Origin: Streptomyces sp. AJS327
Lineage (GTDB): Bacteria > Actinomycetota > Actinomycetes > Streptomycetales > Streptomycetaceae
Direction: 5' to 3'
NCBI RefSeq assembly: GCF_013450295.1
Contig: NZ_SKBR01000004.1
Coordinates: 62,001 to 126,000 of the forward strand
Length of the DNA stretch: 64,000 nt
The position numbers and the translations under genes were made by a program. Under the pieces are notes generated by a model that saw only the letters and a program-made list of their open reading frames with translations, searched no databases and was not told the DNA's origin. Positions 1-14,319 of the stretch are shown piece after piece. The stretch's first letter is position 1. Each line of letters starts with the position of its first letter.

Positions 1-122
1 TCGATCTCGACGACCTCCTCGCGGCACCGGGTCTCCTTGCGGTACCGGACCCCGGGGATACGCGGCTGGTCGAAGTCCTCGGCCTGGTTCGCTGAGGCCG
101 CGCCGCTGCCGGACTGCGTCAT
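1..122 (-). CDS. Partial hypothetical protein of the element (N-terminal part)
   Basis: Reading leftwards from an ATG at 120-122 gives about 40 codons (starting MTQSGSGAASANQAEDF) that stay open to the window edge. The segment is hydrophilic, with basic and acidic residues near the end (RYRKETRCREEVVEI). There is no clear Shine-Dalgarno sequence just upstream. Direction agrees with the leftward operon. I do not recognise a family. It could be the start of the next operon gene or a chance frame. Confidence 0.35.
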   Translation of the reverse strand, partial: MTQSGSGAASANQAEDFDQPRIPGVRYRKETRCREEVVEI

Positions 123-342
123 CGGGGACCACCGCCGAAGCGGGGCGACTGCGAGGTGCCGGCGCCCGCGGTGTCCGCGTCGACCGCCGACGACGCCGGT
201 TTTAGATCAGTAGAGTGACCCATGCGTGAGGGCTCCCTGTGAGGCAGGTCTCTGACGTCCCCGGCTCTCCCGTGTGCGACTACGAGGTGACCGGGGGGTG
301 CGGCGGCCCGGAGTGCGACTTCCGAGCCGCCGCTGTCCGTTG

Positions 343-376
343 CCCCTGCTGTCGTATGCGACTACGACGGCAGGGG
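343..376. repeat. Inverted repeat, 14-bp arms with a 6-nt loop
   Basis: CCCCTGCTGTCGTA is followed after TGCGAC by TACGACGGCAGGGG. The arms are complementary except for one T/G pair. No T-run follows on either strand. It may be a terminator, an RNA element or a protein binding site. Confidence 0.6.
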
Positions 377-400
377 CGCAGGTGTAGCGATCGGAAGGCT

Positions 401-429
401 ACCTGTTTTCGCCAGTTGCGCAAACAGGT
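401..429. repeat. Imperfect palindrome just upstream of the HTH gene
   Basis: ACCTGTTT and AAACAGGT flank an inner CGC/GCG pair around the loop CAGTT. It ends 17 bp before the start codon of the small DNA-binding protein at 447, which makes an operator for that gene plausible. Confidence 0.5.
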
Positions 430-446
430 TGTGAGAGGACGGCGGT

Positions 447-743
447 ATGCCCGGCTCCCCCAGAGGGGTTCGGAAGGCTCACGGCCAGGAGCGGCCGGTG
501 ATCTGCTCCATCCCGGAGATGCCCGACCTTCTCCAGGCGGCTGGGCTGCCACGTCTGACCACTGCTCGAATCCGGCAGATCGTCAAGAACGACAGCGACT
601 TTCCCCCGACGATCTGGGAGCGCGGCCGGGTGCGGCTATGGCTGTGGACTGAAGTCGAGCGGTACTTCCGAAAGCGGAAGTTGAGCCCGGGTGCCCGGAC
701 CGACCTTCAGCACGAGCACCAGAACGACGCCGCGCAGGGGTGA
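447..743 (+). CDS. Small winged-helix/AlpA-like DNA-binding protein
   Basis: A 98-residue protein transcribed against the flanking leftward genes. The central part (MPDLLQAAGLPRLTTARIRQ, then IVKNDSDFPPTIWERGRVRLWLWTE) has the layout of an AlpA/excisionase-type helix-turn-helix: a recognition helix after LTTARIRQI, a FPP turn, then a strand and a final W-x-x-x-EVERYF helix. Such proteins in integrated elements act as excisionases or small regulators; which applies here is inferred. The ATG at 447 has GAGAGGAC about 6 nt upstream. An internal ATG at 519 is an alternative start. The last 37 bp overlap the converging gene ending at 707. Confidence 0.6.
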   Translation: MPGSPRGVRKAHGQERPVICSIPEMPDLLQAAGLPRLTTARIRQIVKNDSDFPPTIWERGRVRLWLWTEVERYFRKRKLSPGARTDLQHEHQNDAAQG

Positions 744-1291
744 ACCGGCGGTCCGCTGGCCTCGGTGGACAGCACGAAGTGCACGTCGGGGTCGACGTCG
801 TGCGGGTTCGGGATCGGCGGCGGAGTGGGCCAGGCGTAGCGTCCACGGGACGCATGGGCGGACCCGCCGGCGAGCACGTCCTGGCCCTCGATGGCCAGGG
901 GCCAGCCCTCCAGCGGCATCGGCCGCCACTCGACGACGAGGCTGTACACCCAGGTGCCGGGCGCCGCCCACGACCACAGATCGACGCTGGCCCCGGTCGC
1001 GCGGTGCTGCCACAACCGCTCGACCCCGGCCTCCGCTTCGGGAAACGCCACCGACTCGTCGGACAGCGCGAATCCGACCAGCGGCGGCACGTTCCGGCCG
1101 CGGGGAGCGGTGAGCGTCCCGAAGGGCGGCAGGCTGGCCCGATGCGCGTACACCAGCGTCACCGGCTGCGGGAACCACGTCGTGCATGCCTGCCGATGAT
1201 CCGGCTCGCCCTCGCGGTACGGCGTGATGCGGACGACGTCGCACAGGCTGAGGGTCGGCCGGGCGGCGACCGTGTCATCGTCGTCGGGCAC
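707..1291 (-). CDS. Hypothetical phage protein, 194 aa
   Basis: The GTG at 1289-1291 is preferred because GGAAGGGA lies just upstream and it overlaps the preceding gene by only 17 bp. The longer frame upstream has no ribosome binding site. The protein starts VPDDDDTVAARPTLSLCDVV and has a mixed, globular-looking composition (WSWAAPGTWVYSLVVEWRPM, then PLEGWPLAIEGQD). No transmembrane segment or known motif is recognised. It is the last gene of the leftward run before the converging gene at 447. Confidence 0.6.
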   Translation of the reverse strand: MPDDDDTVAARPTLSLCDVVRITPYREGEPDHRQACTTWFPQPVTLVYAHRASLPPFGTLTAPRGRNVPPLVGFALSDESVAFPEAEAGVERLWQHRATGASVDLWSWAAPGTWVYSLVVEWRPMPLEGWPLAIEGQDVLAGGSAHASRGRYAWPTPPPIPNPHDVDPDVHFVLSTEASGPPVHPCAASFWCSC

Positions 1292-1721
1292 GCGGTCCCT
1301 TCCTGCCAGCGGGACCAGGGCGTCGCCCCGGAGATGCACCGTGTCGTGCACTCGGGGCGTACGGCACCGCTCGGGAACCGGGTGGCCCGTACGGCGACTG
1401 CCAAGCCGGCCGGTCGCGGCGGGCGGCGGCCGGGCCGGGGCGCGCGGAGCGCAGGTACTCGGCGAACTGCCGCAGGATCGGCCCGGCCGCCGCAACGGCC
1501 TGGGCGAGCTGCCGGGCCATGGCCTCAACCAGCGGGCGGAAGGCAGCGGCCATCTCGCCGAGGGCGGCGCGGCACTCGGCGCGCACCAGCTCCGTGTACG
1601 GGCCGGACTCGCTGCGGAGGACCTGGCCGACGGCGGTGAGCGCCTGCTGCAGCGTCAGGCCGTTCCGCTGGACGAGGCGGTGGGCAAGCAACAGAGCAGC
1701 GCGGGCTGTGTCAGGGGGCAT
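1275..1721 (-). CDS. Hypothetical phage protein, helical with basic tail
   Basis: A 148-residue protein from an ATG preceded by GGAGGAG at 8 nt, one of the clearest ribosome binding sites in the operon. Residues 1-95 look alpha-helical (ARAALLLAHRLVQRNGLTLQ, later FRPLVEAMARQLAQAVAAAG). The last 50 residues are Arg/Pro/Gly-rich and strongly basic, suggesting nucleic-acid contact. It overlaps the start of the gene ending at 707. I do not recognise the family. Confidence 0.65.
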   Translation of the reverse strand: MPPDTARAALLLAHRLVQRNGLTLQQALTAVGQVLRSESGPYTELVRAECRAALGEMAAAFRPLVEAMARQLAQAVAAAGPILRQFAEYLRSARPGPAAARRDRPAWQSPYGPPGSRAVPYAPSARHGASPGRRPGPAGRKGPRARRR

Positions 1722-2106
1722 CAGCGGGACTCCTCCGGGGGGTGGTCCGGGCCGAGGGGATGTCGAAGGCGTCGTTGATCGCGTCCCGTACCTGGGCGCG
1801 GCGGACACCGCCCGGACGCGCTGCCCGGGCGGTGTCGTCGCTGGCGGCGTCGGCCGTGTCCGGCGGTTCTCCGGCGTTATCCGGGACCTGTCCGGCCGTG
1901 TCCGAGCGGGTGGCTTGCCCGATCGCCGCGAGCGCTTCGGCGAAGGCGGCGCCGACGAGGTGCCGGGGTACGCGTGCCCGGTACTCGACCCGGACACCGT
2001 CCGGGCGCTCAATCGGGCTTGTCCGGGCGGCGTCCGATCTGCCCGGAGTGCTGTCCGGCGGTACGGCTCTGTCCTGCTGGCTGTCCGGGCGGTGCCGTCG
2101 GCTCAC
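1711..2106 (-). CDS. Hypothetical protein with Pro/Asp-rich linker
   Basis: A 131-residue protein whose GTG start overlaps the upstream stop as GTGA, typical of translational coupling. It has a hydrophilic N-terminal tract rich in PDS/PDT, a short folded-looking segment (RVEYRARVPRHLVGAAFAEA), a second linker and a C-terminal helix (RAQVRDAINDAFDIP). The linkers coincide with the TGTCCGG motif cluster described separately, so part of the protein composition may be dictated by DNA-level signals. Function unknown. Confidence 0.6.
   Translation of the reverse strand: MSRRHRPDSQQDRAVPPDSTPGRSDAARTSPIERPDGVRVEYRARVPRHLVGAAFAEALAAIGQATRSDTAGQVPDNAGEPPDTADAASDDTARAARPGGVRRAQVRDAINDAFDIPSARTTPRRSPADAP
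1857..2088 (+). repeat. Cluster of oriented TGTCCGG motifs (left cluster)
   Basis: TGTCCGG occurs at 1857, 1889, 2020, 2052 and 2082 on the plus strand, with a near match TGTCCGA at 1898. There is one inverted copy at 1990-1996 that forms CCGGAC-ACC-GTCCGG. Relative to the overlapping gene the copies fall in all three codon phases, which argues for selection on DNA rather than on peptide. A second cluster lies at 6186-6327. Confidence 0.6.
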
Positions 2107-2648
2107 TGGTCGACGAACCCCGCCTGCTGGACGGTCGGCCCGGTCGGCTCGGGCGTGGCCGGGACCGTCTGCTTCAGCCCTGCGGGCGTGGGCGGCGGGG
2201 TGGGCTGTTCGGCGGGCAGCGGACCGGTGTGCTCGAACACCGTCGCCCACATCGGGTGGTCGGCTCGGAGGAGGACGTGTGCGACGCCCAGCAGCCGCTC
2301 GGCGGTGTACGTCGCCGCCGGCTGATTCACCGGGTACGGCGCGCACTCCTGGAGGGCGCGGGCGACGTTCTCCACCGTGGCGGGGTGGATGCCCTCGGCC
2401 GGAACCAGAGCCTCGTCCCACGAGTAGTCACAGCGCTGGCAGGCCCGCTCCAGCCGCTCGGGCAGTGGACCGCGCTGCTGCATCCGCCCGTTGCGGTCGT
2501 GCATCGCGCGCGGGCAGGCGGGCCGGTAGTACGTGAACGCCTCGTTGTGCGAGCACTTCACGCACACGGTCAGCTCGCCCGAGTACGGAGGCAGCGGCGG
2601 CATGAACTCGCCGCTCTCGTCGGGGTGTTCGTTCGTCCTGTCGTGCAT
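2103..2648 (-). CDS. Zinc-ribbon-like phage protein, 181 aa
   Basis: Starts at the ATG at 2646-2648, preceded by GGGAC; an upstream in-frame GTG at 2690 lacks a clear site. An N-terminal Asp/Glu-rich segment is followed by a CVKC knuckle and a CQRC knuckle about 45 residues later, the pattern of a four-cysteine zinc ribbon. The second half (ATVENVARALQECAPYPVNQ, then TYTAERLLGVAHVLLR) looks helical. It probably binds metal and may bind nucleic acid, by analogy only. It ends in a GTGA junction with the next gene. Confidence 0.65.
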   Translation of the reverse strand: MHDRTNEHPDESGEFMPPLPPYSGELTVCVKCSHNEAFTYYRPACPRAMHDRNGRMQQRGPLPERLERACQRCDYSWDEALVPAEGIHPATVENVARALQECAPYPVNQPAATYTAERLLGVAHVLLRADHPMWATVFEHTGPLPAEQPTPPPTPAGLKQTVPATPEPTGPTVQQAGFVDQ

Positions 2649-2728
2649 GTCTGTCCCATCGGGTCGGGAGTTCCACGACCGCCTGAGCACGCATCGTGCT
2701 CACGCGGTGACGGAGGATGGTCGGTCCT

Positions 2729-2999
2729 TCACGGACCTGGTGTTCCGCGCTGCTTCCAGCTGGGGAGCGGGGTCGTCACGGTGTCCTCGGCGCGGTATGC
2801 GCGGCGGTTCGCGGTACGCCGGGGGTGGAGCAGCCAGGCGACGGCGGGAGCGGCGAGGAGGACGGCCGCGGCGGCGAGGAAACGCCAGTGCCACACGGGC
2901 AGACTGGCCGCTGCCGCGTCGGCCCAGGCGACAAGCCGGCGCCCGGCTCGCGCGCTCCAGTGCCTCGACGACGTCGAGCCGGTAGTCCTGCTCGTTCAT
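2729..2999 (-). pseudogene. Small membrane protein gene, apparently frameshifted
   Basis: The ATG at 2997-2999 overlaps the upstream stop (ATGA) and reads MNEQDYRLDVVEALERASRA. Codon use then becomes poor (APACRLGRRGSGQ, runs of Arg) in that frame. The +1 frame reads on as RLVAWADAAAASLPVWHWRF, then LAAAAVLLAAPAVAWLLHP, an obvious membrane helix with normal G/C third positions, and stops at 2729. Removing one base near 2937-2942 joins them into a protein of about 89 residues with one membrane segment. If no shift exists, the open frame runs instead from 2999 to 2700 (99 aa). This may be a real mutation or a sequencing error. Confidence 0.5.
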
Positions 3000-3220
3000 G
3001 CCGTGATCTCCAGCTCTCCGAGCGGCAGCCCGGCGTCGATGTGGGTGTGCAGCTCGCGCAGCCGAGCCAGTGCTCGGACGCGGTCGCCGCGTGCGGTGAG
3101 GGCACGGCGCGCGGCGGGCGGAAGCTGCTCCCAGCAGTTGCCGCACAGGTAGAGCCGGGACGGCTTCGGTGTCCGGCACGCGCGGCAAGGGGTCGCGGTG
3201 TACGCGCCTCGGGGACTCAC
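2996..3220 (-). CDS. Small zinc-finger-like protein, 74 aa
   Basis: The GTG at 3220 has GGGAGGAGAC immediately upstream. The N-terminal half carries CRAC and CGNC separated by about 13 residues (TPCRACRTPKPSRLYLCGNC), a compact four-cysteine metal-binding knuckle. The C-terminal half is helical (ARGDRVRALARLRELHTHID). Proteins of this kind are common and uncharacterised in actinophages. It is joined by ATGA to the following gene. Confidence 0.7.
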   Translation of the reverse strand: MSPRGAYTATPCRACRTPKPSRLYLCGNCWEQLPPAARRALTARGDRVRALARLRELHTHIDAGLPLGELEITA

Positions 3221-3251
3221 GTCTCCTCCCGACGACGGCCTTGGTGGGCGG

Positions 3252-3534
3252 TCATCTCCTCGTAGGCGTTGAACAGTGCGCGACGGCGAGGCGCACGCCG
3301 ATGTGCCGGTGTCCGACGGCGGCGAGCCATCCGGCGCACGCTTCCTCAGCGCCCCCGTCGGTCTTGTGGCAGGCGAACAGCGGTGCGCTCAGGCCGGGTT
3401 CTATGCCGTGGGGCTGCTCGCTGGTGCACTTCAGGGCCTCGTACCGCTCGGCGCTGAACTCGCCGGGGGGTGTCGCGCTTCCACGGGCAGCGTGCGCACG
3501 GGAACCGGCGGTGCGGCACGGTGTCGTTCGTCAT
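3252..3534 (-). pseudogene. DUF6283-like cysteine protein, frameshifted at a C6 run
   Basis: From the ATG at 3532-3534 the frame reads MTNDTVPHRRFPCARCPWKR and then derails at a run of six C at 3467-3472. In the shifted frame it continues GEFSAERYEALKCTSEQPHG, then LFACHKTDGGAEEACAGWLA and AVGHRHIGVRLAVAHC, stopping at 3252. The joined product (PCxxCPW, FxCHK, CAGWLA) is what I recall of the DUF6283 family of small actinobacterial Cys/His proteins, function unknown. One C fewer in the run restores the frame. A homopolymer sequencing error, a true mutation or slippage are all possible. Confidence 0.6.
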
Positions 3535-3977
3535 CGGGTGGTTTCTCCTTCGGGGTGGGGTTTCCGGGCGGTCTGCCCGGGGCGTGGTTTCGAGGGGTGG
3601 CGGGTGCCGATGGCGAGCGCGCGGGCGACGGCCTGCGCCCCGTAGCGGGCTGCGGCTGCCTCGTGGCCGTCGTCGGCGACAGCGCGCAGGACTTCGCCCA
3701 ACTCGACCCCTTCGGGCAGCGTCCTGGCCGGCCGCCGGTTCGCCGTACCGCACAGCAGGCAGCCGTTGTCGGCCGTCGGGTCGATGGGGCCGCCCGGGTG
3801 CCGCGAGCAGCGGTTCGCTGGCGTGGTCTTGCCCTGCGCGGACCGCACCAGGTGCACCGCGCGTTCCAGCTCCTCGGCCAGCTCGGCGAGCGTCTGGTCC
3901 GTGACCTCGCCGCGATGGGCGTACGCGGCGATGTCGCGCACCGCGCGGCCGATCTCAGGCAGGAAGTCAGGGTTCAC
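3531..3977 (-). CDS. Hypothetical phage protein, 148 aa
   Basis: The GTG at 3975-3977 overlaps the initiator stop (GTGA). Residues 1-45 are helical and acidic (NPDFLPEIGRAVRDIAAYAH, then LAELAEELERAVHLVRSAQG). Then come RCSRHPGGPID and CLLCG, possibly one metal knuckle, and a helical segment (VELGEVLRAVADDGHEAAAA). The last 25 residues are basic. Position directly after the initiator suggests a replication accessory role, but no motif supports a specific function. Confidence 0.6.
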   Translation of the reverse strand: MNPDFLPEIGRAVRDIAAYAHRGEVTDQTLAELAEELERAVHLVRSAQGKTTPANRCSRHPGGPIDPTADNGCLLCGTANRRPARTLPEGVELGEVLRAVADDGHEAAAARYGAQAVARALAIGTRHPSKPRPGQTARKPHPEGETTR

Positions 3978-4960
3978 CCGTGCTTCACCGCCTCCAGCTC
4001 CCGCCGTTCCTCTTCGGCGGTGACCAGGCACGTCGGGCACCGGTCGGAGGTCCGCAGCCGGTACTCGCGCCCGCAGCCGCACGTTCGTCGCGGGGCGGCC
4101 GGGTCTTCCTGGGGCCAGGGCACGCGCTCCGGGCGTTTGCGGGCAGCGTCCTGGCCTCCGCCGGTCAGCGGCACCAGGAACGCGCCCTGTACGCCCGTCT
4201 GCGCGTTTCGGAGGCAGCCGCCGCAGCGGTCGCGGTCCGGGCGGACGATGCGGCCCGTCGTGCAGACCGGGCACGACCGTGCTTCGGGCTCGTCCGGCTG
4301 GCTGGAACCGTCTGGATCTCGCGCGCCCGCGCGTTCGTCTGGTTGCGGTACTACATCAGCCATGTCTTGGGTTCTGTCGTGGGTAACCCCTGGGTTGTTC
4401 GTGCCTCTGTGGCCCGAACCGTTCGTGCCTCTGTGGTCTGAACCCGTTCGTGCCTCTGTGGCCCGAACCTCTTCGCCGTCGGTTCGTGCCTCTGTGGCCC
4501 GAACTTCGTCTCCTTCGGAGTTCGAGCCTTTGTGGCCCGAACTTCCGTCGTCCTCTTCGGTCTTCCGGGGACGGGCGGTGGTCTTCAGGTAGTCGGCCGC
4601 GCTCGCCCAGTCCGGCCAGGGGCAGTTCAGCAGCCGGTAGACCGTCGGGCGGCCACGGCGGCGCTCTCCGACGGTCATGACGACACCGGCGCGGATCGCG
4701 GCGTCCAGGTAGCGGCGGGCGTCCTGCTCGCGGCATCCGGCGGCCTTGGCGATGTCCTGGATGCGGATGGGCTTGCCGTCGCCGGAGAACCGCGTCTCAC
4801 CGCTGACCGTGACCATCGCCCGGAGCGCGTAGAGCATCGTCAGGAAGCCGCCCTTCAGCGTGCGCGGGATCTCCCTCGACCACCGCCAGACCAGGACGTT
4901 GCCGAACTCGTGCGGCGGGCAGCCGGGTTTGCGCTCCGGCTGCTGCTGCTCGTGGTTCAC
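3974..4960 (-). CDS. Phage-type replication initiator with winged helix and zinc ribbons
   Basis: A 328-residue protein. Residues 15-112 form a winged-helix-like domain (EIPRTLKGGFLTMLYALRAM, IRIQDIAKAAGCREQDARRY, GRPTVYRLL), the type used by phage replication initiators such as lambda O. Residues 135-190 are a hydrophilic linker encoded by the iterons (HRGTN and RATEART repeats). The C-terminus carries two zinc-ribbon pairs (C230xxC233/C246xxC249 and C294xC296/C308xxC311). In lambda the origin iterons lie inside the O gene in the same way, so an origin-binding role is inferred from architecture. GTG start with a GAGAGAG site upstream. I see no DnaB/DnaC-like helicase or loader nearby. A regulator is the main alternative. 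Confidence 0.65.
   Translation of the reverse strand: MNHEQQQPERKPGCPPHEFGNVLVWRWSREIPRTLKGGFLTMLYALRAMVTVSGETRFSGDGKPIRIQDIAKAAGCREQDARRYLDAAIRAGVVMTVGERRRGRPTVYRLLNCPWPDWASAADYLKTTARPRKTEEDDGSSGHKGSNSEGDEVRATEARTDGEEVRATEARTGSDHRGTNGSGHRGTNNPGVTHDRTQDMADVVPQPDERAGARDPDGSSQPDEPEARSCPVCTTGRIVRPDRDRCGGCLRNAQTGVQGAFLVPLTGGGQDAARKRPERVPWPQEDPAAPRRTCGCGREYRLRTSDRCPTCLVTAEEERRELEAVKHG
4397..4542. other. Putative replication origin: five 23-bp iterons inside the initiator gene
   Basis: Five copies of GTTCGTGCCTCTGTGGCCCG followed by AAC start at 4397, 4421, 4446, 4482 and 4520. Copies 1, 3 and 4 are identical; copy 2 has GTCTGAAC at its end; copy 5 has GAGCCTTTG in the middle. Each unit has inverted ends GTTCG/CGAAC. 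The copies are translated in two different frames (RATEART and HRGTN), so the DNA is conserved rather than the peptide. The flank at about 4340-4396 is AT-richer than its surroundings and could be the unwinding element. Confidence 0.7.
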
Positions 4961-5088
4961 GGCGGGCTCTCTCTCGGGTGGTGAGGGCGCTGCCCGGTCA
5001 GGGCAGAGCAGAAGGGGATGCGGCCTTGGTCAAGGGCGGGGCGGGGACGAAACGGGGCCGGCTGGGGCGGCGAGGTGCGACCAGGCGC

Positions 5089-5385
5089 TCAGGGGCGAGC
5101 GCGGCGCCGGTACGCCGACATGTCCGCGACGCCGGGCGGCAAGACCGCCGGGCGTCGCTGCCGTCGCTGCACCTGCGCCTCGCAGGTCGCGACGTGCGGC
5201 ATGTACAGCTTCTCCCAGCGCGCCACGGGCAGTTCGTCCGTCGGGCGCCGCGACCGCCACGTTCCCGTGCCGTCCCGGTATGCGGCGGTGTTCCCGTCGT
5301 CGTCCGGCTCCTTGTTGACCGCCAGGCGCCGCCCGGCGTCCGTCACGGTCCACACCACCGGCTCCCCGCACTGCGGACACCGCAT
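5089..5385 (-). CDS. Small Cys/His protein, 98 aa
   Basis: ATG at 5383-5385 with a purine-rich GGAGAGGAGAGAGG site. The protein starts MRCPQCGEPVVWTVTDAGRR, giving one CxxC knuckle at residues 3-6, and has MPHVATCEAQ near residue 65, likely the partner His/Cys ligands. It is a one-finger fold common in actinophage early regions, with a basic tail. About 130 bp without a gene separate it from the initiator. Function unknown. Confidence 0.7.
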   Translation of the reverse strand: MRCPQCGEPVVWTVTDAGRRLAVNKEPDDDGNTAAYRDGTGTWRSRRPTDELPVARWEKLYMPHVATCEAQVQRRQRRPAVLPPGVADMSAYRRRARP

Positions 5386-5465
5386 GGCCTCTCTCCTCTC
5401 CCTACCGGCGGAGGCCGCGGGGCCGCGCCGTCTCGCAGCGGCGGGCGACGGCGCGGCCCCGCGCG

Positions 5466-5717
5466 TCACCCGCGCCCCTTCCGCTGCCCGCTGCGCCCGC
5501 GCAGCGTCACCTTGGCCTCGACGAGGAGGTGCCGGGTCAGCCCGTACGACAGGCTGTGCTCGGACGCCAGGGTGCGGATCGACGCGCCCGCGCCGTACTT
5601 CTTCGCGAGCGTCCTGCGCATCTCCTCGCGCTCGTCGCCGCGCAGCCGGGGCCGGTACTCGCTGCCCCGCCGCGAACCGATCCGGGACTTCACCGTCGTG
5701 CCGGTGGTCTCGCTCAT
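5466..5717 (-). CDS. Small helix-turn-helix protein, 83 aa
   Basis: The ATG at 5715-5717 has GAGAGGAACAG upstream; a longer upstream frame is disfavoured. The core (RGDEREEMRRTLAKKYGAGA, SIRTLASEHSLSYGLTRHLL, VEAKVTLRGR) is a helix-turn-helix of a kind widespread in Streptomyces chromosomes and phages, where S-I-R-x-L-A begins the motif and a basic RGR tail follows. It is expected to bind DNA. It lies between the WhiB-like gene and a Cys/His protein. Confidence 0.75.
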   Translation of the reverse strand: MSETTGTTVKSRIGSRRGSEYRPRLRGDEREEMRRTLAKKYGAGASIRTLASEHSLSYGLTRHLLVEAKVTLRGRSGQRKGRG

Positions 5718-5803
5718 GGATCTGTTCCTCTCGTTCTCCGAATGCGGCCCGGGCGTCGAGCCCGGCCGCGGGGTGCCAGCGGCCCGATCCGAGCCGGGCG
5801 GGC

Positions 5804-6148
5804 TCACGCGGCCGTGGCGGCATCGGCCTTCTCCTTCGCGCGCTCCCGGCGGCGCTGGTTCTCCGCCTCGCGCCGTGCCCGGCGCAGCAGTTCGGCGCGT
5901 TCGTGCTCGTCAAGGCCGCCCCACACCCCGTAGTCCTCGCGGAACGTCAGCGCGTGGGTGAGGCACTGAGACTTGACCGGGCAGCCCGCGCAGACCCTCT
6001 TGGCGTACTCGGCGTCGATCGACGCGGGGACGCCGCCCGCGCCGGCGGGGAAGAACGCCGCGGTGGGGACGCCCTGGCAGGCAGCGTCGTCCATCCAGTG
6101 GTGCGGCCGGGGAAGGGTGTCCGGCGCGTAGCGGGACGGTCGTGCCAT
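5804..6148 (-). CDS. Element-encoded WhiB-family iron-sulfur regulator
   Basis: A 114-residue protein with all Wbl hallmarks: C24, then C53xxC56 and C62 (RVCAGCPVKSQC) to hold a [4Fe-4S] cluster, the G[V/I]WGG turn (GVWGG, residues 74-78) and a basic C-terminal helix (RAELLRRARREAENQRRRER). WhiB-like proteins bind sigma factor region 4 and modulate promoters. Phage-encoded copies are known (WhiB of mycobacteriophage TM4 inhibits host WhiB2). ATG start with GAGGAGC upstream. The chromosomal wblA lies 15 kb to the right. It overlaps a long open frame in another phase (see 5910-6455). Confidence 0.9.
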   Translation of the reverse strand: MARPSRYAPDTLPRPHHWMDDAACQGVPTAAFFPAGAGGVPASIDAEYAKRVCAGCPVKSQCLTHALTFREDYGVWGGLDEHERAELLRRARREAENQRRRERAKEKADAATAA

Positions 6149-6455
6149 GAGTCAGCTCCTCGGTGCATTTCGTGTCGCCCGGACATGTCCGCCCCCTCGG
6201 CCCGGACGTGTCCGGGCCTGTGTCCGCGCAGGTCACCCCCCTCGCGGGTGTCTCCCGTACGGGTAAGTCCGGCTCGGTGTCCGGAGGCTGTCCGGCAGAT
6301 GTCCGAGGACGTCGGTGCCGTGTCCGGCGCGGAGCGCGGTGCAGCCCCCACCCGGCCGAGGCGAGCCCGAGGACGATGGGCGCCCACACGTCCCGCGACT
6401 CCACGACCGTGTTCACGGCGCTGCCGTACGCAAGGAACAGCTCGACCCAGATCAC
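5910..6455 (-). CDS. Membrane-anchored ORF running into the WhiB gene; 3' end uncertain
   Basis: The GTG at 6453-6455 overlaps the preceding stop (GTGA), supporting a real start. The N-terminus is hydrophobic (VIWVELFLAYGSAVNTVVES, then VWAPIVLGLASAGWGL), giving one or two membrane segments. A Pro/Asp/Thr-rich tract then coincides with the second TGTCCGG cluster and includes a TTA leucine codon, rare in this GC-rich window. The frame does not stop before the WhiB gene and would overlap nearly all of it, which is unlikely. The true end may be displaced by a frameshift in 6160-6330. The N-terminal third is the reliable part. Confidence 0.4.
   Translation of the reverse strand: MIWVELFLAYGSAVNTVVESRDVWAPIVLGLASAGWGLHRAPRRTRHRRPRTSAGQPPDTEPDLPVRETPARGVTCADTGPDTSGPRGRTCPGDTKCTEELTHGTTVPLRAGHPSPAAPLDGRRCLPGRPHRGVLPRRRGRRPRVDRRRVRQEGLRGLPGQVSVPHPRADVPRGLRGVGRP
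6186..6327 (+). repeat. Cluster of oriented TGTCCGG motifs (right cluster)
   Basis: TGTCCGG occurs at 6209, 6278, 6289 and 6321, with TGTCCGC or TGTCCGA variants at 6186, 6221 and 6300, all on the plus strand. The 6209 copy is part of the near palindrome CCCGGACGTGTCCGGG. The copies occupy all three codon phases of the overlapping frame. Same motif and orientation as at 1857-2088. Confidence 0.6.
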
Positions 6456-6691
6456 CCGGCATCACCGCCCTCCGGCAGGGCGTCGGCGTCGCGCCACCGC
6501 GTGACGGTCCGCTGGGCGACGCCCAGCCGCTCGGCGATGAACGCCGCCGAGAAGCCCTCGTCGGTCATCTCCCGGCACGCGTACCGCTGTTCCTCCTCGG
6601 TGAGGACCGGCGGGTCACCCCGGCCCGACTTGGCACGCTCGACCGCAATCAGGTCGATGCCGCGGTGCCACGTCGAGCCGGGGAACGTCAC
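6452..6691 (-). CDS. Small helix-turn-helix protein, 79 aa
   Basis: GTG at 6689-6691 overlapping the preceding stop. The C-terminal half is a clear helix-turn-helix (ACREMTDEGFSAAFIAERLG, VAQRTVTRWRDAD), resembling the sequence-reading part of transposase or terminase small-subunit helices. The N-terminus (HRGIDLIAVERAKSGRGDPP) probably packs against it. It is expected to bind DNA; target unknown. GTGA coupling to both neighbours shows it is part of the operon. Confidence 0.65.
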   Translation of the reverse strand: MTFPGSTWHRGIDLIAVERAKSGRGDPPVLTEEEQRYACREMTDEGFSAAFIAERLGVAQRTVTRWRDADALPEGGDAG

Positions 6692-6963
6692 GCGCTGCTC
6701 CTCTCGCGCAGCACCCGGTCGTGCAGGTGCGGGCCGGCCACGCAGGCGGGGAAGCCGCAGGAGGGCCGGACGTTGCCCTCGGGCTCACGGCCGTGGTGCC
6801 AGGCGAAGGACAGCCGGTACGCGGTGTGCACCTGGTTGGCCATGGCCAAGACCGGGGTACCGCGGGTGTTGGTGGTACCGGTCCAGTGCAGGTGCCCGCC
6901 GTCCAGGGCGACGGTCCGCTCGGCGAACGCGGCGCGCCATACGGCGTCGTCCGGGGCGCTCAC
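6688..6963 (-). CDS. HNH-like small phage protein, 91 aa
   Basis: The GTG at 6961-6963 overlaps the stop of the RuvC-like gene. The protein has LDGGHLHWTGTTNTRGTPVL, then a His-rich segment (SFAWHHGREPEG) and a C-terminal CGFPACVAGPHLHD. This order (WxG, R..FAWHHG, CG.PxCVxPxHL) is like the HNH endonuclease-related proteins of actinophages, in which the CxxxC..HL part holds zinc. Several catalytic residues cannot be assigned, so nuclease activity is only suggested. Confidence 0.55.
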   Translation of the reverse strand: MSAPDDAVWRAAFAERTVALDGGHLHWTGTTNTRGTPVLAMANQVHTAYRLSFAWHHGREPEGNVRPSCGFPACVAGPHLHDRVLRERSSA

Positions 6964-7529
6964 CGCTCGACCTCCGGCCAGCACACTTTCGCCAGGCGGT
7001 CGCGCTGCGCCTTCGGCAGCTCGATCGGCGGGATGCCGAGGTGATCACGCCCCGCGCACCACAGCCACCAGGCGTCGCAGCAGTTGTCGTCGGAGAACTC
7101 CAGCCCGGCGCGCTTGTACGCGGCCATCACCATCGCCGTCTTATCGCCGGAGCCCTTGCCGGTGGCGTACGCCTTCAGCGTCGCCGCCGTGATCAGCGCG
7201 TACGGCACTCCGGCCTCGATGAGCACCGACCGGACGACGCCGTGCACCATGGCGATGGCCTTCGCGGCGTGGCTGTTGCGGGGGATGTCCTCCAGCACCG
7301 CGAGCACCGGCGGGTGGCCGAGCCCGATGTGGTGGCCGCCGACCGCGAGCCGCGCGGCCTCGGCGATCTGGAGCAGACGGCGGTCACCGTCCGCGGTGCG
7401 GGTCTTCACCGTGGCGGTCGAACCGTCCCGGTAGCAGATGCCCGTCGCGGCCACGGACAAGTCGAAGGCGACGACCGCCAGCGGCGGTCCGGCGTCGAAC
7501 AGGGTCGGCTCGGGGGTGGGCAGCGTCAT
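6960..7529 (-). CDS. RuvC-fold nuclease (Holliday-junction resolvase-like)
   Basis: A 189-residue protein from an ATG that overlaps the upstream stop (ATGA). Strand 1 carries the first acidic residue (VVAFDLSVAATGICYRDG, D23), then LEDIP (E80) and a C-terminal SDDNCCDAWWLW (D148/D152). These four acidic positions match the RNase H/RuvC active site. GSGDKTAMVMAAYKRAG before the last motif is also RuvC-like. In phages such enzymes resolve branched DNA before packaging. With RecT and the YqaJ nuclease it completes a recombination module. Sequence specificity is unknown. Confidence 0.7.
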   Translation of the reverse strand: MTLPTPEPTLFDAGPPLAVVAFDLSVAATGICYRDGSTATVKTRTADGDRRLLQIAEAARLAVGGHHIGLGHPPVLAVLEDIPRNSHAAKAIAMVHGVVRSVLIEAGVPYALITAATLKAYATGKGSGDKTAMVMAAYKRAGLEFSDDNCCDAWWLWCAGRDHLGIPPIELPKAQRDRLAKVCWPEVER

Positions 7530-7750
7530 CGGCGTGCCCCCTGACCGGAGACGTGCAGCAGGAGCGCCGCGAGCACGGTGGCCGGCCACCACACCACGAG
7601 GAGCGCGCAGTACAGGCCGACGGCGACCGGACGGATGTGGAAGGCCATGCTCAGCCAGGGGTCCTGGCGGGCCTGCACGACGGTGGCAGCGGCTCCGAGC
7701 GGGATACCGACCGCCCACACGACCAGCACGATGACGGCGAGGGCGTTCAC
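7526..7750 (-). CDS. Small membrane protein with two predicted helices
   Basis: A 74-residue protein, GTG at 7748-7750 with GTGA overlap. Residues 3-27 (ALAVIVLVVWAVGIPLGAAA) and 41-67 (VAVGLYCALLVVWWPATVLA, then ALLLH) are strongly hydrophobic, with RQDPW between them. No holin-specific feature can be identified. It may be a membrane component of superinfection exclusion or just an uncharacterised early protein. Confidence 0.6.
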   Translation of the reverse strand: MNALAVIVLVVWAVGIPLGAAATVVQARQDPWLSMAFHIRPVAVGLYCALLVVWWPATVLAALLLHVSGQGARR

Positions 7751-8427
7751 TGCGACTCACCGTCCATCCAGCCCTTCGGGGGGCTCGGCGTGAGGGAGAA
7801 CCCGGTGAGCACCAGCCGGTCGGCGTCGGGTGCGTGGCAGTTCGCTTCGGCGGCCAGCCACTCGGGCAGCTCGTCGGCCGAGCGGCCGGTGTCGCTGGTG
7901 ACCTGGTCGAGGAGGACGGTCACCGGCTCCTCCGGCCGCCACGCGGCGACTTCGACCCGGGCCGTGCGCGCCTTCTTGTCGACGTCGACGACCCGGACCC
8001 CTGCGGTGGCGCGGTCGTCGTCCCGCGCGGCGAGGTACGTGCGGCCCAAGTCGGTGATGACCGGCCGCAGGTCGACCGTCAGCGTCGCCAGGCCCCGCAC
8101 CTTCAACTGGGCGAACAGATCGCTCGCGTCGATGTCCTGACCGCTTGCGAGGGCGGACAGCAGCGCCTCGGCCTCCAGGCCGATCGGCAGCTCGCGGGCG
8201 AGGCGCGTCACCCGCACCTGCCCGGCTCGCCAGGCCGCGGTGTGCCGGGTCGTCGCCGCCGAGCACGGGCAGCCATACACCGTGTCCTTGTGCTCGGCGG
8301 CCGTCAGGCCGACGCACTCCAGGAGGCTGGTGCGCCCGCGCTCGCACAGGTCGACCGTGCAGCACGCGCAGTCCGGGCAGTCCTTCTGCGGCGGCCGGAC
8401 GTACTCCGGCCCGAAGGGCTCATCCAT
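7747..8427 (-). CDS. Cys-rich hypothetical phage protein, 226 aa
   Basis: ATG at 8425-8427. The N-terminus is packed with cysteines (DCPDCACCTVDLCERG, later YGCPCSAATTRHTAAW), suggesting one or two zinc sites. The middle is mixed alpha/beta (LPIGLEAEALLSALASGQDI, RVVDVDKKARTARVEVAAW). The C-terminus has EWLAAEANCHAPDADRLVLT. Neighbours are DNA-metabolism genes, but I recognise no enzyme motif. Confidence 0.65.
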   Translation of the reverse strand: MDEPFGPEYVRPPQKDCPDCACCTVDLCERGRTSLLECVGLTAAEHKDTVYGCPCSAATTRHTAAWRAGQVRVTRLARELPIGLEAEALLSALASGQDIDASDLFAQLKVRGLATLTVDLRPVITDLGRTYLAARDDDRATAGVRVVDVDKKARTARVEVAAWRPEEPVTVLLDQVTSDTGRSADELPEWLAAEANCHAPDADRLVLTGFSLTPSPPKGWMDGESQ

Positions 8428-8674
8428 CGTCGATATCCCCTGCTGTCGTGGTGGTCTTGCACACCAGGCAGCGGCGCCGTCCGGCGTCGAGGGTGTGCGG
8501 GGTGTCCCGGCCCTCGGCCGGGCAGTACGCGCGCGGAGCCCCGGTGTGGAACCGAGCCGTCGGCGGGCCGACGCGGTGACGGCCCGGCGGCTTGCGCCAG
8601 GACCGGACGGCGGCCGTGACGGTCCCGCCGCCGACGGCGACGGCCAGCAGGCCCAGCAGGACGGGTTCGTTCAT
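8420..8674 (-). CDS. Membrane-anchored small zinc-motif protein, 84 aa
   Basis: ATG at 8672-8674 overlapping the DnaQ-like gene stop. Residues 4-22 (PVLLGLLAVAVGGGTVTAAV) form a signal-anchor-like helix. The rest is cytosolic in character with YCPAEGRDTPHT and RRCLVCK, which could form one metal site. It overlaps the next gene by 8 bp. Function unknown. Confidence 0.6.
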   Translation of the reverse strand: MNEPVLLGLLAVAVGGGTVTAAVRSWRKPPGRHRVGPPTARFHTGAPRAYCPAEGRDTPHTLDAGRRRCLVCKTTTTAGDIDDG

Positions 8675-9399
8675 GCCGGCCACACCTCCGGGCGCATCGC
8701 CGGGATCAGCGGCCAGCCGACGCGCACCGTGCGGGCGCGGTGCTCCTTGCCCGGGGTCGTGGCGAAGTGTTCGCGCAGGCTCTCCTGCTGCTCCACCGCC
8801 CACCGGGCCTGCTGCTCGTGCAGCTCGCTCAGCGACAGCCGCGCCAGTTCGTAGGTCCGGGAGACCACCGCGCGGGTGACCTGGCAGGCGGCGACCGCGT
8901 CAGCCGCGGAGTCGTGCGCGTCATCGAGCTGCACGCCGTAGTGCCGGGCGAGGGCGTCCAGCCGCCGCGCCCCGGGCCGGTACCGGTCGACGTGCTTGTC
9001 CAGCACTATCGGGTCCAGCACGACCGGCACCTGGCGGGCGAACAGCCCGCGCAGACCGTGCCGTTCGGCCTCGGCCTCCAGCATCGTGAGGTCGTACGGC
9101 GCGTTCATCACGACCAGCGGCCTCCCGGCCGCGACCAGGTCGGCGAGAACGTCGAGCACTTCGCTCACGACCAGGTGGGCGGGGCGGCCCGCTTCGCGGG
9201 CCGCCTCCGTGGTGAAGCCGTGCACGGCCGTCGCGCCGGGCGAGATCGGAATGTCCGGGTCGGCGATCCACTGCCGCACTGCGCCGGGCCGGCCGCCGCC
9301 GTCGGTGACGACGGCGGCCGTGACGATGCGGTCGTGCTCCGGGTCCGTGCCGGTGGTCTCGACATCGAACCCGCAGAACCCCTGCTCGTGCCAGGACAT
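8671..9399 (-). CDS. DnaQ-like 3'-5' exonuclease
   Basis: A 242-residue DEDDh-family nuclease. Exo I is FDVETTGTDPEHDRIVTAAV (D12, E14), Exo II is PLVVMNAPYDLTML (D103), and Exo III is LDDAHDSAADAVAA (H162, D167). This matches the proofreading epsilon subunit family. Phage copies trim 3' ends in replication or recombination. The start and the RecT stop overlap by one base (TGATG), so it is probably cotranslated with the recombinase. About 70 residues after Exo III are helical and not recognised. Confidence 0.88.
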   Translation of the reverse strand: MSWHEQGFCGFDVETTGTDPEHDRIVTAAVVTDGGGRPGAVRQWIADPDIPISPGATAVHGFTTEAAREAGRPAHLVVSEVLDVLADLVAAGRPLVVMNAPYDLTMLEAEAERHGLRGLFARQVPVVLDPIVLDKHVDRYRPGARRLDALARHYGVQLDDAHDSAADAVAACQVTRAVVSRTYELARLSLSELHEQQARWAVEQQESLREHFATTPGKEHRARTVRVGWPLIPAMRPEVWPA

Positions 9400-10394
9400 C
9401 AGCGGCGCCCCCGACCCTTACGACGGCGGGTCTTTCGGCTCGCGGGCCGCTTCGGCTGCGCTCGCTTCTTCGGCTGGGCTGCCCGTACGGGCTCCTGCGA
9501 GCCCTCGGCCGCCGCGTGGGCCGCGGTGGCGTCCGCGAGGGCCTGCGCGTCCTCGTCCGGGGCGTGGACGACCTGCACCTTCCCGGCGTCGCCTGCGTCG
9601 TCGGCCTTGGCGAGCTGCACCAGCTCCGTCGACATCGGCACGACCTTGTGCAGCCGCCGCAGCGCCGACTTCGCCCACATCGCGTCGAAGTCGGTGTGCC
9701 AGAAGGAGTCGCACCTGCCGGACTCCACGGCCCGCCGGTACGCCTGGCTGTACTCGTCGCGGATCTCCTCGGCGTCCTCCCGCGTGAGGATCACCACCTG
9801 GGAGCGGGCGCCCCCGGCGAGCCAGCAGAACGCGTACGCCAGGATCGGCTTGCCGCGCTGCTCCCGGGTGAGGGTCAGGCCCGGCTTGTGCGTGAAGTCG
9901 AGCGGCGGCGGCGCGCTCGGCTCGTAGTTCCACTCGTCCCCGGCGTGGATCATCCCGACGTGCACGGAACCGACCCGGCCGGACCGGTACATCAAGTCCA
10001 CGTAGCCCTGGTACATCGGCACGAAGCTGGCGAGCCTGCCCTCGCGCTTGATGACGGCGTGACGGCCGTCCGGCATCAGCCCGAACCGCGCGCACGCGAG
10101 GAGGGCTTGCAGCAGCGAGGCGGGGGTGCACGGCGCGAGGTCCGGCAGGGCCGACCGTACGGCCGCGAGGAACGCGCCCCGGTCGACGTGGCTGGGCAGG
10201 GCCTTGGTGAAGTGCTCGCCGTACCGCTCCAGCCAGGCCAGCACGGCGTCGGTCGTCGCACCGCCCTCGGCACGCTCAGCGGCGTGCAGCTCCTCCTCCG
10301 TGCCGTCCTCGACCGCGGCGGCCGGACGTACCTCCGTCCGCTTAGGCTCGTCGCTCGTCGCGGCGCGGACGCGGTCCTTCAGGGTGTTCGCCAC
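9399..10394 (-). CDS. recT: RecT-family single-strand annealing protein
   Basis: A 331-residue protein. The RecT core is clear: the N-terminal helix (LAWLERYGEHFTKALPSHVD), LLQALLACARFGLMPDGRHA, VPMYQGYVDLMYRSGRV, the strand-rich centre (GDEWNYEPSAPPPLDFTHKP) and the C-terminal DFDAMWAKSALRRLHKVVPM. RecT coats single-stranded DNA and anneals complementary strands after a partner exonuclease resects ends. The YqaJ gene directly upstream is that partner. The tail is Lys/Arg/Ala-rich. GTG start 1 bp after the upstream stop codon. Confidence 0.93.
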   Translation of the reverse strand: MANTLKDRVRAATSDEPKRTEVRPAAAVEDGTEEELHAAERAEGGATTDAVLAWLERYGEHFTKALPSHVDRGAFLAAVRSALPDLAPCTPASLLQALLACARFGLMPDGRHAVIKREGRLASFVPMYQGYVDLMYRSGRVGSVHVGMIHAGDEWNYEPSAPPPLDFTHKPGLTLTREQRGKPILAYAFCWLAGGARSQVVILTREDAEEIRDEYSQAYRRAVESGRCDSFWHTDFDAMWAKSALRRLHKVVPMSTELVQLAKADDAGDAGKVQVVHAPDEDAQALADATAAHAAAEGSQEPVRAAQPKKRAQPKRPASRKTRRRKGRGRR

Positions 10395-10395
10395 G

Positions 10396-11433
10396 TCACA
10401 CCCCCTTCGCGGGCACGTTGAGTACCCGGGCACGGAACTGGGCGAAGATCTCCGGCTTCTCGTCCTTCAGCCGGTCGGTGTCGATGGCCTCGACCAGGTG
10501 CGTGTACTCGGCCGCCAGCTCGGGGAGTGCCTCGCGGAACTTCTTCGGCGCGAAGGCGCCGTTCTGCTTCCACGTCCACGCCGGCTGCCCGTCGGCCTTG
10601 GCGATCTCGGCCTCACCGGTCAGGCGGCGCATCTCGTTCTCAACGGTGCGCAGCTCGTCGGCGATCGTCTTGACCCGCGCCTTCAGGTCGAAGCGGCGGG
10701 CGCGCAGCTCCTTCGCGGTGGCGACGTCGACTTCGGTGACCGCCTCCGGCTTGACCGACCACAGCCTGGCCAGCAGCTCGGTGGTGGCCTCCAGTCCGTC
10801 GGCCTCCGGGGGCACGCCGTCGACGACGTGCCGCTGGTACCACCGGCCGATCTTGTCGACGAGCCAGCCGGTCATCTCCTCGTCGCGCTCGACGAGGTGC
10901 CAGCGCAGCTTGTTGCCGCCGACGAGGGCGGCGACCCATCCGACGTCCCAGCCGCCGACGGCCATGTACCAGTGGCACTGGAGCGCCGGAGCGTCCGGGA
11001 CGCCGTCCTCCCAATCGGCGAACTGGTACTCGCTGCGGTTCTTGCACTCCAGCGGACCGGCGACCGCGCCGGTCGCCGAGTCCCACAGGCAGTAGCGGTC
11101 GACGTTGGCGAGCATCCACGCGTGCTCGTGGTGTACGAGCGTCCCCGGCGGAGTCGCGATGTCCACGCCGGATTTCTTCGAGAACAGCCGGGCGATGAAG
11201 TCCTCGATCTCCCGGCCGATCTCGGCGGACTCACTGTCGACGAAGTCGGGCCGGCCGTGCTTGGCCTCGTACACGTGGCGCGGGCCGCGGTACTTGTCCA
11301 GGCCGAGGATCGCGGCGACGTCCGAGCCGCCGATTCCCGCCCGGCGGGTGGCGTGCCACTCGGCTTCGGGCGCGTCGGCGGGCAGCAGCAGCCGCGCGGT
11401 TGGCGCCCCCGAGGGCGCGGTCATCGTGGTCAC
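10396..11433 (-). CDS. YqaJ-like viral recombinase (alkaline exonuclease)
   Basis: A 345-residue protein of the YqaJ/lambda-exonuclease group of PD-(D/E)XK nucleases. Visible motifs are GIGGSDVAAILGLDKYRGPR (N-terminal helix with the family GGSD/S), EIGREIEDFIARLF, the acidic residue in LANVDRY (D112), and LECKNRSEYQF (E129-x-K131), followed by LQCHWYMAVGGWDVGWVAAL. It degrades one strand of double-stranded ends to feed RecT. The C-terminal 130 residues include a coiled-coil-like helix pair. GTG start (GTGA overlap) with GGAAGGA upstream; an ATG three codons on is an alternative. Confidence 0.9.
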   Translation of the reverse strand: MTTMTAPSGAPTARLLLPADAPEAEWHATRRAGIGGSDVAAILGLDKYRGPRHVYEAKHGRPDFVDSESAEIGREIEDFIARLFSKKSGVDIATPPGTLVHHEHAWMLANVDRYCLWDSATGAVAGPLECKNRSEYQFADWEDGVPDAPALQCHWYMAVGGWDVGWVAALVGGNKLRWHLVERDEEMTGWLVDKIGRWYQRHVVDGVPPEADGLEATTELLARLWSVKPEAVTEVDVATAKELRARRFDLKARVKTIADELRTVENEMRRLTGEAEIAKADGQPAWTWKQNGAFAPKKFREALPELAAEYTHLVEAIDTDRLKDEKPEIFAQFRARVLNVPAKGV

Positions 11434-11681
11434 TTCGGGTCCTTCCGGCAGGAGTTGAGGCGGCGTGCGGCGGCCAGGGCCTCGATCTCGGCGGCGGTCC
11501 GAACCGGGTCGTCGACCGTCCACGCCGCCGACGCGATGTCCGATCCGGCGGTGAGGGCGGCGCTCACGCGGCCCAGGACGGTCTGGAACTTCACCGGGTC
11601 GTCGCTCTCGGCGATGCGCATCCACGCCACCTCGGCGGGCGTGCGCAGGTCGCGGGGCAGGTCACGCACGGGGCACCACAT
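11430..11681 (-). CDS. Small hypothetical phage protein, 83 aa
   Basis: ATG at 11679-11681 inside the end of the preceding gene, followed by a GTGA junction into the YqaJ gene. The sequence (PRDLRTPAEVAWMRIAESDD, PVKFQTVLGRVSAALTAGSD, RTAAEIEALAAARRLN) is helical and acidic. No family is recognised. Tight coupling ahead of the exonuclease suggests a recombination accessory protein, but this is inference from position only. Confidence 0.6.
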   Translation of the reverse strand: MWCPVRDLPRDLRTPAEVAWMRIAESDDPVKFQTVLGRVSAALTAGSDIASAAWTVDDPVRTAAEIEALAAARRLNSCRKDPK

Positions 11682-12519
11682 CCCGGCGGCACCGGCCGCA
11701 GCGCAGGGACACGAACTCGCTATCCCGGGCCTGGTAGTTGATGCGCCCGCCGTCGCAGTCGGTGCACGAGGCGCGGGCGGCGGCCAGGCCGACGAGGAAC
11801 TGGGCGGCGTCCCGGGCGGACATGCGGCCCGAGGTCGAGGTGCGTTCCTCCTCGACGCGGCGCGCGGCCTCGTCGTGTCCGGCGACGGCGAGCAGCAGCG
11901 CGGACCGGCGGGCGGTCAGGAACCGCTGCTTCTTCTCCAGCGCGCGCAGCAGAGCGACGGCCGCACCGAACTCCTCGTTCTCGTCCGAGGCTTCGTCGTC
12001 GAGCGCGAGCGTGGCGTCAGCGACGAAGCGGGCCAGCTCGCGGCCCTCGGCGAGCACGGCGGCGTACATGTCGGTGTGGCCGCAGCCGTTCTTCCACTTG
12101 TCGGCGACGTACCACTCGCCGTCTTCGGGGAAGCGGTACGGGACCGCGCTGCCGCGGGGGCCGCCGCAGCGCGGGCAGTCCGGCGACACGGTCACTGCGA
12201 CGATGCGGACGCCTTCGTAGCTGCGGCTCGTGCCCCGGTCGCACACCCGGTAGGTGACGGCGGGCGGGCGGGGCGCGGGCTTGGGGAGGCCGGCCGTGTA
12301 GCGGACCCACACGGCGGTGCCGTCGTCGTGCCGGGCGTCGTACGCCTCGTACGTGCCCGGCGGGTGGTAGGCGGGCATCCGCTCCGCGCGGGGGATGCGG
12401 CGGGCGGCGGACTGCCCGCCGTCGGCCGCCGGGTACACGGCCGCGAGGACCCAGTTGCCGCGCGCTGCGCGGGCGCGCCGTGCGATCTCGCTGTGCCTCG
12501 GTGCGATGCGGGCGGCCAT
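11662..12519 (-). CDS. Zinc-finger hypothetical phage protein, 285 aa
   Basis: ATG at 12517-12519. After a basic N-terminus comes a strand-rich segment, then CPRCGG at about residue 117 with GCGH near 147, and a C-terminal CTDCDGG with LRCGRC. These look like two separate zinc ribbons flanking a long helical region (AAVALLRALEKKQRFLTARR, DEAARRVEEERTSTS). The DnaJ-like CxxCxG pattern at the end is notable but isolated. It is the largest unassigned gene of the operon. Confidence 0.7.
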   Translation of the reverse strand: MAARIAPRHSEIARRARAARGNWVLAAVYPAADGGQSAARRIPRAERMPAYHPPGTYEAYDARHDDGTAVWVRYTAGLPKPAPRPPAVTYRVCDRGTSRSYEGVRIVAVTVSPDCPRCGGPRGSAVPYRFPEDGEWYVADKWKNGCGHTDMYAAVLAEGRELARFVADATLALDDEASDENEEFGAAVALLRALEKKQRFLTARRSALLLAVAGHDEAARRVEEERTSTSGRMSARDAAQFLVGLAAARASCTDCDGGRINYQARDSEFVSLRCGRCRRDVVPRA

Positions 12520-13605: not shown

Positions 13606-13611
13606 GTTCAG

Positions 13612-13640: not shown

Positions 13641-13654
13641 GACGTGTCGGATAC

Positions 13655-14292: not shown

Positions 14293-14319
14293 TCACACGA
14301 TTAGCCCTTTCGCGTTATT

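Follow-up and report, generated by a model that had tools for sequence, protein, structure and literature searches.

A candidate replication origin of lambda-type iteron layout inside the putative initiator gene of a Streptomyces prophage

A prophage of Streptomyces sp. AJS327 carries, in the middle of one of its early genes, an array of five 23-bp imperfect palindromes that most probably (we would put it at roughly 85%) is the replication origin of the prophage, with the iterons embedded in the gene of their own initiator as in phage lambda. The array is part of a 64,000-nt stretch of DNA (assembly GCF_013450295.1, contig NZ_SKBR01000004.1, positions 62,001 to 126,000), called the window here, to which all coordinates refer; the features are compiled in Table 1. 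A preliminary description of this DNA had proposed an iteron origin inside a phage-type initiator gene, and this reading is supported by most of the sequence comparisons reported here. Binding of the N-terminal domain (N-domain) of the gene product to the array is strongly supported by comparison of related genes; from the arrangement as a whole we infer origin activity.

Table 1 Features of the candidate origin, its putative initiator gene and the integration site in the window.
Feature	Position	Strand	Remarks
Candidate initiator gene	3974..4960	-	GTG start, 328 aa; predicted winged-helix N-domain, predicted disordered iteron-encoded linker, two Cys ribbons; from ORF list, AlphaFold2 and homologues
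Predicted winged-helix DNA-binding domain, residues 15-112	4625..4918	-	AlphaFold2, Foldseek and VIA matches
Codon of R77, directly before predicted recognition helix 78-91	4730..4732	-	Covaries with iteron bases 8, 9 and 16
First Cys ribbon (C230, C233, C246, C249)	4214..4273	-	Alignments; positions hand-counted from the translation
Second Cys ribbon (C294, C296, C308, C311)	4028..4081	-	Alignment; positions hand-counted from the translation
Iteron unit 1 (first in coding order)	4520..4542	-	
Iteron unit 2	4482..4504	-	
Iteron unit 3	4446..4468	-	
Iteron unit 4	4421..4443	-	25 bp from unit 3; same spacing in 63/63 arrays
Iteron unit 5	4397..4419	-	24 bp from unit 4; adjoins the AT-richer flank
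AT-richer flank, candidate unwinding element	4322..4396	-	Begins AACCCAGG; low-coordinate side of the array, downstream in the gene
Integrase gene	14636-16189		Adjoins tRNA-Pro
tRNA-Pro (cgg) gene	16294-16368		Likely attachment site

The five units were found exactly where the preliminary description had placed them, and each copy has at most two mismatches to the coding-strand unit GTTCGGGCCACAGAGGCACGAAC. The inverted ends GTTCG/CGAAC described before are present, but the dyad is longer than these, with nine-base arms that contain one mismatch. In the 6.74-Mb host genome the exact degenerate pattern matched these five copies only, and the reversed control pattern gave 0 matches; with up to six mismatches allowed, the window again contained these five only and the 40 kb to its left one more, at six mismatches. 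Synonymous shuffling of the window gene gave five units within four mismatches in 2 of 2000 cases. When 56 array-bearing genes were shuffled 20 times each, a cluster of more than two units was seen in 0 of 1120 codon-order shuffles, and the largest cluster comprised four or more units in 512 of 1120 synonymous shuffles; for the family, the latter is a weak null model, since the peptide that it retains itself mirrors the repeats. Translation of the window units uses two frames (1,0,0,1,1; locus L033), as had been described.

The gene is located in the early region of an integrated prophage, which also encodes two repressor-like proteins, RecE, RecT, an exonuclease, a RuvC-like resolvase, an HNH protein, a WhiB protein and further DNA-binding proteins; it shares the strand and the early region with the genes for RecE, RecT, the RuvC-like protein and the exonuclease. 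Terminase genes are present within 40 kb to the left of the window. No 14-base copy of the tRNA-Pro region was found in these 40 kb or in positions 1-16000 of the window and, therefore, the left end of the prophage is not fixed. Two ParB-like proteins are encoded left of the window (L059:6422-7597 and L058:14731-15873), approximately 16 and 28 kb away; one of their genes adjoins the terminase genes. A perfect 17-nt inverted repeat with a 14-nt loop (5416-5463), perhaps a terminator, lies directly downstream of a gene for an HTH_58 protein (5466-5807), which has a below-cut-off NCBIfam match to the CRISPR repeat-binding protein Cbp1 (E 8.9e-8; 32 of the 140 bits needed).

Homologues of the gene are carried by the Streptomyces phages Chymera and OnionKnight, where they are annotated as 'hypothetical protein'; both phages, like the window element, have an integrase. 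Further homologues were found in viral contigs (25 loci in one scan and 38 in another, overlapping one; all 37 contigs of a further viral scan were already among the 38) and in 13 genome contigs, 12 of which are named Streptomyces and one Actinacidiphila. In surveys of genomes, matches were obtained in at least 11 of 293 genomes at the order level and at least 3 of 296 at the class level, all in one genus, and in at least 22 of 392 at the genus level; these are lower bounds because few candidates per genome were scored. One locus of the genus-level survey (L124) lacked a tblastn match and was dropped. The family set comprised 67 distinct genes, including that of the window. Since many of them are closely related, family counts are not independent, and the tree used in the covariation analysis serves as correction. 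Four genes were left out of the array counts: two fragments (L096 and L127), one gene with no fixed register (L040) and one without an array (L043). The latter encodes a distant homologue of 126 aa with a winged-helix-like N-domain and is possibly an array-less regulator or a remnant. L040 is homologous in the C-terminal half, which follows five copies of a clearly dissimilar unit (spacings 24, 45, 23 and 24), possibly a further specificity group.

An array of four to seven units in the linker after the N-domain was present in the remaining 63 of the 67 distinct genes. At least four clustered GTTCG-type units were found in 56 genes, and seven more contain a divergent unit in like geometry, the registers of these seven arrays being set by hand; L042 and L126, whose dyad register is ambiguous, were kept with the left arm aligned. 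Outside the genes, 322,745 bases contained 214 single matches under loose scanning and, therefore, only clusters of at least four units were counted. Sixty-one arrays end with spacings of 25 and 24 bp and the other two with 25 and 23 bp; elsewhere in the arrays, spacings group around 36 and 46. A helical phase of approximately 0.4 turn at 10.5 bp is common to most gaps (resultant 0.925, 262 gaps), a value that owes much to a few spacings that recur and to inheritance. The preliminary description had named, as evidence against an origin, repeats that are not conserved beside a conserved peptide; what was found is that number and spacing are conserved and that the sequence of the unit varies in step with the protein.

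Of the 63 arrays, 47 are translated in all three reading frames and 16 in two. The unit sequence differs between phages and is uniform within each phage regardless of frame. For unit positions 7-17, units of the same locus read in different frames had an identity of 0.910, compared to a mean of 0.666 when units were dealt among loci, and 0 of 500 shuffles reached the observed value (49 loci, 257 units; this analysis and those of dyad pairing and flank GC were done before later loci were fetched). Therefore, it is the DNA and not the peptide that is kept uniform, as had been argued from the window alone. In the last units, positions 3/21 and 5/19 are complementary in 49/49 loci, positions 8/16 in 41/49 (GC 22, CG 16, TA 3) and positions 9/15 in 32/49, with G-G in 16/49; positions 10/14 are not complementary in 43/49. 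Taken over all 257 units, the outer arms are less strictly paired (1/23 complementary in 174, 3/21 in 201). In four loci (L017, L019, L020 and L022) the right half is constant, GCGACCC, and the left half varies. The units are thus largely symmetric sites whose inner 8/16 pair changes on both sides, as expected for DNA bound by a dimer.

The encoded protein was modelled with AlphaFold2. In the full model, residues 21-130 form a winged helix with block-mean pLDDT values of 81-97, the helices of the N-domain being predicted at 15-30, 38-49, 67-74 and 78-91 and its strands at 94-97 and 107-110, and the array-encoded linker is of low confidence (pLDDT < 50 for residues 143-181). Modelled alone, the N-domain had much the same elements with a mean pLDDT of 76.7, below that of the same residues in the full model. 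This agrees with the earlier proposal of a winged helix before the repeats, and the zinc ribbons proposed after them were recovered as Cys patterns in the alignments, the second one in 10 of the 29 proteins aligned there. Foldseek and VIA matched the N-domain to winged-helix proteins including 4pt7, 4pql and 5kbj, which we take to be N-domains of RepA_N-type plasmid initiators; MarR, Fur and CRP domains matched the fold equally well as initiators, and absence of a named family from these lists is no evidence. The predicted fold of the N-domain is that of a generic winged helix.

A curated family match above the cut-off was obtained for the window protein neither in Pfam nor in NCBIfam, and no NCBIfam model matched any of five family members scanned. 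With Pfam at E 0.01, 37 members gave only FaeA (weak, in 6/37), HTH_29, HTH_36 and Zn_ribbon_SprT, which are weak winged-helix or ribbon matches. FaeA was rejected as family name for the window protein: its match (E 0.01) was below the cut-off and that of a winged helix merely. Among the PHROGs, 391 ('replication initiation O-like') matched 5/37 members weakly (best E 3.5e-4; the window protein was without match), 270 ('replication initiation protein') matched 3/37, likewise weakly, and 2030 ('transcriptional regulator') matched 5/37 weakly. The best reading of these searches is an unnamed family of winged-helix initiators that no curated family tested here covers, in line with the preliminary description, in which the initiator could not be placed in a named family.

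Evidence that this protein reads the repeats of its own gene comes from residue 77, which directly precedes helix 78-91 and is Asp in 33, Arg in 18, Ser in 10 and Asn in 2 of 63 loci. Scored with the majority base per locus, Arg goes with CC..GG in 18/18, Asp with GG in the left arm in 33/33 and Ser/Asn with ..GA in 11/12; at position 16, G is found with Arg in 18/18, C with Asp in 31/33 and A with Ser/Asn in 11/12. The window protein belongs to the Arg type, that of OnionKnight to the Asp type and that of L013 to the Ser type. Arg-G, Asp-C and Asn-A are usual residue-base preferences. The exceptions to this code are L121 (Ser with CC..GG) and L039 and L052 (Asp with GG..GA). The normalised mutual information of residue 77 with iteron positions 8, 9 and 16 amounted to 0.63, 0.63 and 0.68, compared to 0.18, 0.16 and 0.26 for the next-best of 119 variable columns before the array, which have the same history. 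By parsimony, nine changes of residue group were found, 9/9 on branches with a change at position 8 and 7/9 on branches with a change at position 16; three changes at position 16 occurred without a residue change. Random placement gave a mean of 1.0 coincidences with position 16 and reached 7 in 0 of 5000 trials, and the best other column reached 4. The tree, built without residues 75-79, is poorly supported at some branches (0.47 at one) and allows more than one set of ancestral states. In sum, the covariation is strong evidence that the N-domain encoded by the gene reads the repeats.

The DNA adjoining the last unit is biased in composition and codon use. The 75 nt after the array have a GC content of 0.613, compared to 0.706 for the genes, and rank low in GC inside every gene (median rank 0.066, maximum 0.192; 49 loci); the flank is AT-richer (61% GC), not AT-rich. 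In 63 loci, GC3 was 0.553 in the flank, 0.909 in the N-domain, 0.717 in the array and 0.855 after the flank. The first Pro codon of the flank is CCA in 59 of the 61 genes in which the motif was found; in the N-domains, CCA makes up 14 of 547 Pro codons. In the window, the flank seen in the preliminary description was recovered by nearest-neighbour energy, 4336-4397 being in the weakest 0.8% of the 60-bp windows of 1-14000, where weaker stretches exist (e.g. 13615-13674). Part of the flank signal could come from the protein because the flank peptide is also conserved; the rare codons argue for a role of the DNA. CCCA motifs were seen by eye in the window flank (4364-4396) at 0, 11 and 23 bp; all three at exact 12-base steps were found in 0/61 family genes.

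A search for replication proteins with DnaB_C, DNA_pol_A and D5_N, which covered related records only, gave 0 matches in 22 of them. No record among the 22 reaches the class of 90% completeness or more, and some are perhaps fragments; in 14 control genomes the three models were positive in 14, 10 and 3, respectively. The annotations of Chymera and OnionKnight list no helicase, primase or polymerase. Since none of the three families was found, the phages probably depend on the host replisome, and the gene at 3974-4960 is the best candidate for an initiator that was found by these sequence searches. No helicase loader was recognised among 59 downstream neighbours in a crude comparison of the longest nearby ORF, partly in wrong frames, and loaders are hard to recognise by sequence; the neighbours fell into 10 groups of 2-8 and 20 singletons, that of the window being in a group of 8. 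Cumulative GC skew of Chymera and OnionKnight did not clearly mark the array as origin. One-mismatch matches to the commonly used DnaA box consensus number 7 in the window, compared to 6.12 expected. The first of them is at 21388 and none is near the array, which gives no support to a DnaA-dependent origin. In the open-access PMC literature, no description of this origin was found.

Binding by the protein's own N-domain, the best-supported step, would also fit if the units were operators and the protein regulated early transcription from within its own gene, by repression or looping, without a part in starting replication. The winged helix matches MarR and other regulators equally well as initiators, and weak matches to PHROG 2030 (5/37) and FaeA (6/37) fit a regulator too, the window protein being generically winged-helix-like. 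Operators, however, rarely occur in such numbers deep in a coding region, at near-fixed spacing and beside a conserved low-GC3 flank; the sites in the window are intragenic. Moreover, exact units in the host genome are confined to this gene, further unit matches number 0 in OnionKnight (up to 5 mismatches) and 1 in Chymera (6 mismatches), and a mere regulator would leave the phages without any recognised replication initiator. We therefore regard operators as unlikely.

Iterated sites bound by a winged helix are also found at partition centromeres, where TubR-type systems use a winged-helix adaptor, and the array could serve an extrachromosomal phage in this way; a TubR fragment (6tey) appears at Foldseek rank 34, and the two ParB-like proteins are encoded left in the prophage region. 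However, an integrase is encoded by the window element as well as by Chymera and OnionKnight, none of 27 proteins matched ParA or TubZ in a non-exhaustive scan against PHROGs, and the ParB-like genes are some 16 and 28 kb away, which makes a centromere still less probable than operators. Conservation of the repeats for RNA hairpins or for a repetitive linker peptide, and not for protein-binding DNA, is hardly credible: each unit is a dyad able to form a hairpin and synonymous shuffles retain part of the signal, the peptide reflecting the repeats, but units of one locus are alike across frames (0.910 vs 0.666), pairing is poor at 9/15 (G-G in 16/49) and 10/14 (non-complementary in 43/49 last units), and RNA gives no reason for covariation with a residue beside the recognition helix.

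An iteron origin has its closest counterpart in the O-ori region of lambda and Stx phages. There, iterons lie in the middle of the initiator gene as imperfect inverted repeats of 19 bp (4 units in lambda, 6 in Stx phages), an AT-rich tract adjoins the array, the initiator is dimeric and additional iterons lengthen the protein (PMC7466680). Likewise, palindromic iterons are found here inside the putative initiator gene, in 63/67 distinct genes. The iteron origin of lambda-like layout that the preliminary description had suggested for this actinobacterial element fits the conserved array geometry, the selection on DNA rather than peptide, the conserved AT-richer flank, the residue-base covariation and the lack of matches to three replication-protein families in 22 related records. 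In contrast to lambda, the units have 23 bp, are GC-rich and follow a residue-base code, the flank is AT-richer only, the C-terminus carries Cys ribbons, no equivalent of gene P was recognised and the hosts are Streptomyces. The Pfam lambda O family was not matched by any of the 37 members at E 0.01, and the O-like PHROG matched weakly in 5/37; two proteins named lambda O were among weak BFVD fold matches (E 1.6e-3 and 2.0e-3). Thus, the layout resembles lambda O-ori and membership in the family is not seen at the sequence level; distant kinship with lambda O may exist, given the weak PHROG and fold matches.

RepA_N-type plasmid initiators, which have the origin inside the rep gene, have a winged-helix N-domain, as is predicted here: Foldseek placed 4pt7, 4pql and 5kbj among its first matches (E 1.6e-3 to 5.3e-3; for 4pt7 E 1.6e-3, Z 7.9 and rmsd 4.2 over 98 residues), and no solved fold ranked above 4pt7 and 4pql. 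Identity of these chains to the N-domain is 8-10%, the Z-scores of 4pt7 and 4pql (7.8-7.9 over 97-98 residues) are tied with those of Fur-like and CRP domains and, unlike in RepA_N proteins, there was no RepA_N Pfam match at E 0.01 in 37 members. The replisome organisers of phages of Gram-positive bacteria (SPP1 G38P, A118 gp49, TP901-1 and Tuc2009 Rep) likewise are initiators with the origin in their own gene, but none of their families was among the Pfam or PHROG matches of 37 members or the NCBIfam matches of five. RepA of mycobacterial prophages that are kept extrachromosomally is an actinobacterial phage initiator, as is proposed for the protein described here, and its origin was suggested, by analogy to lambda O, to be just upstream of or within repA; the authors report no repeated motifs in that region, unlike the iteron array found here (PMC7157519).

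If the array is an origin, dimers of the winged-helix N-domain would bind to each 23-bp palindrome, the step for which residue-base covariation provides strong support. Four to seven bound dimers at near-fixed spacing could then form a nucleoprotein complex that strains and opens the AT-richer 75 bp beside the last unit, as composition and codon use of the flank suggest. The C-terminal Cys-ribbon region, a candidate device for helicase recruitment, or another partner may bring in the host DnaB helicase and the replisome; the host helicase is proposed because the phages seem to encode none (three Pfam families searched). The linker peptide encoded by the repeats is predicted to be disordered and would tolerate any of the three frames.

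For a family of Streptomyces phages and prophages, the array and its gene are candidates for the origin and the initiator of replication, and residue-base covariation makes the specificity of initiator and origin readable from sequence. More tentatively, and with the odds somewhat against it, the origin may be re-addressable: a single residue where the recognition helix begins, be it Arg, Asp or Ser/Asn, would set the inner bases of the iterons, the iterons would switch along, and natural groups of mutually blind initiators and origins would result. If so, related phages could replicate in one cell without competing. If confirmed, the candidate origin would provide compatible replicons for Streptomyces and would show how an origin inside a gene changes its specificity while the gene is kept open.
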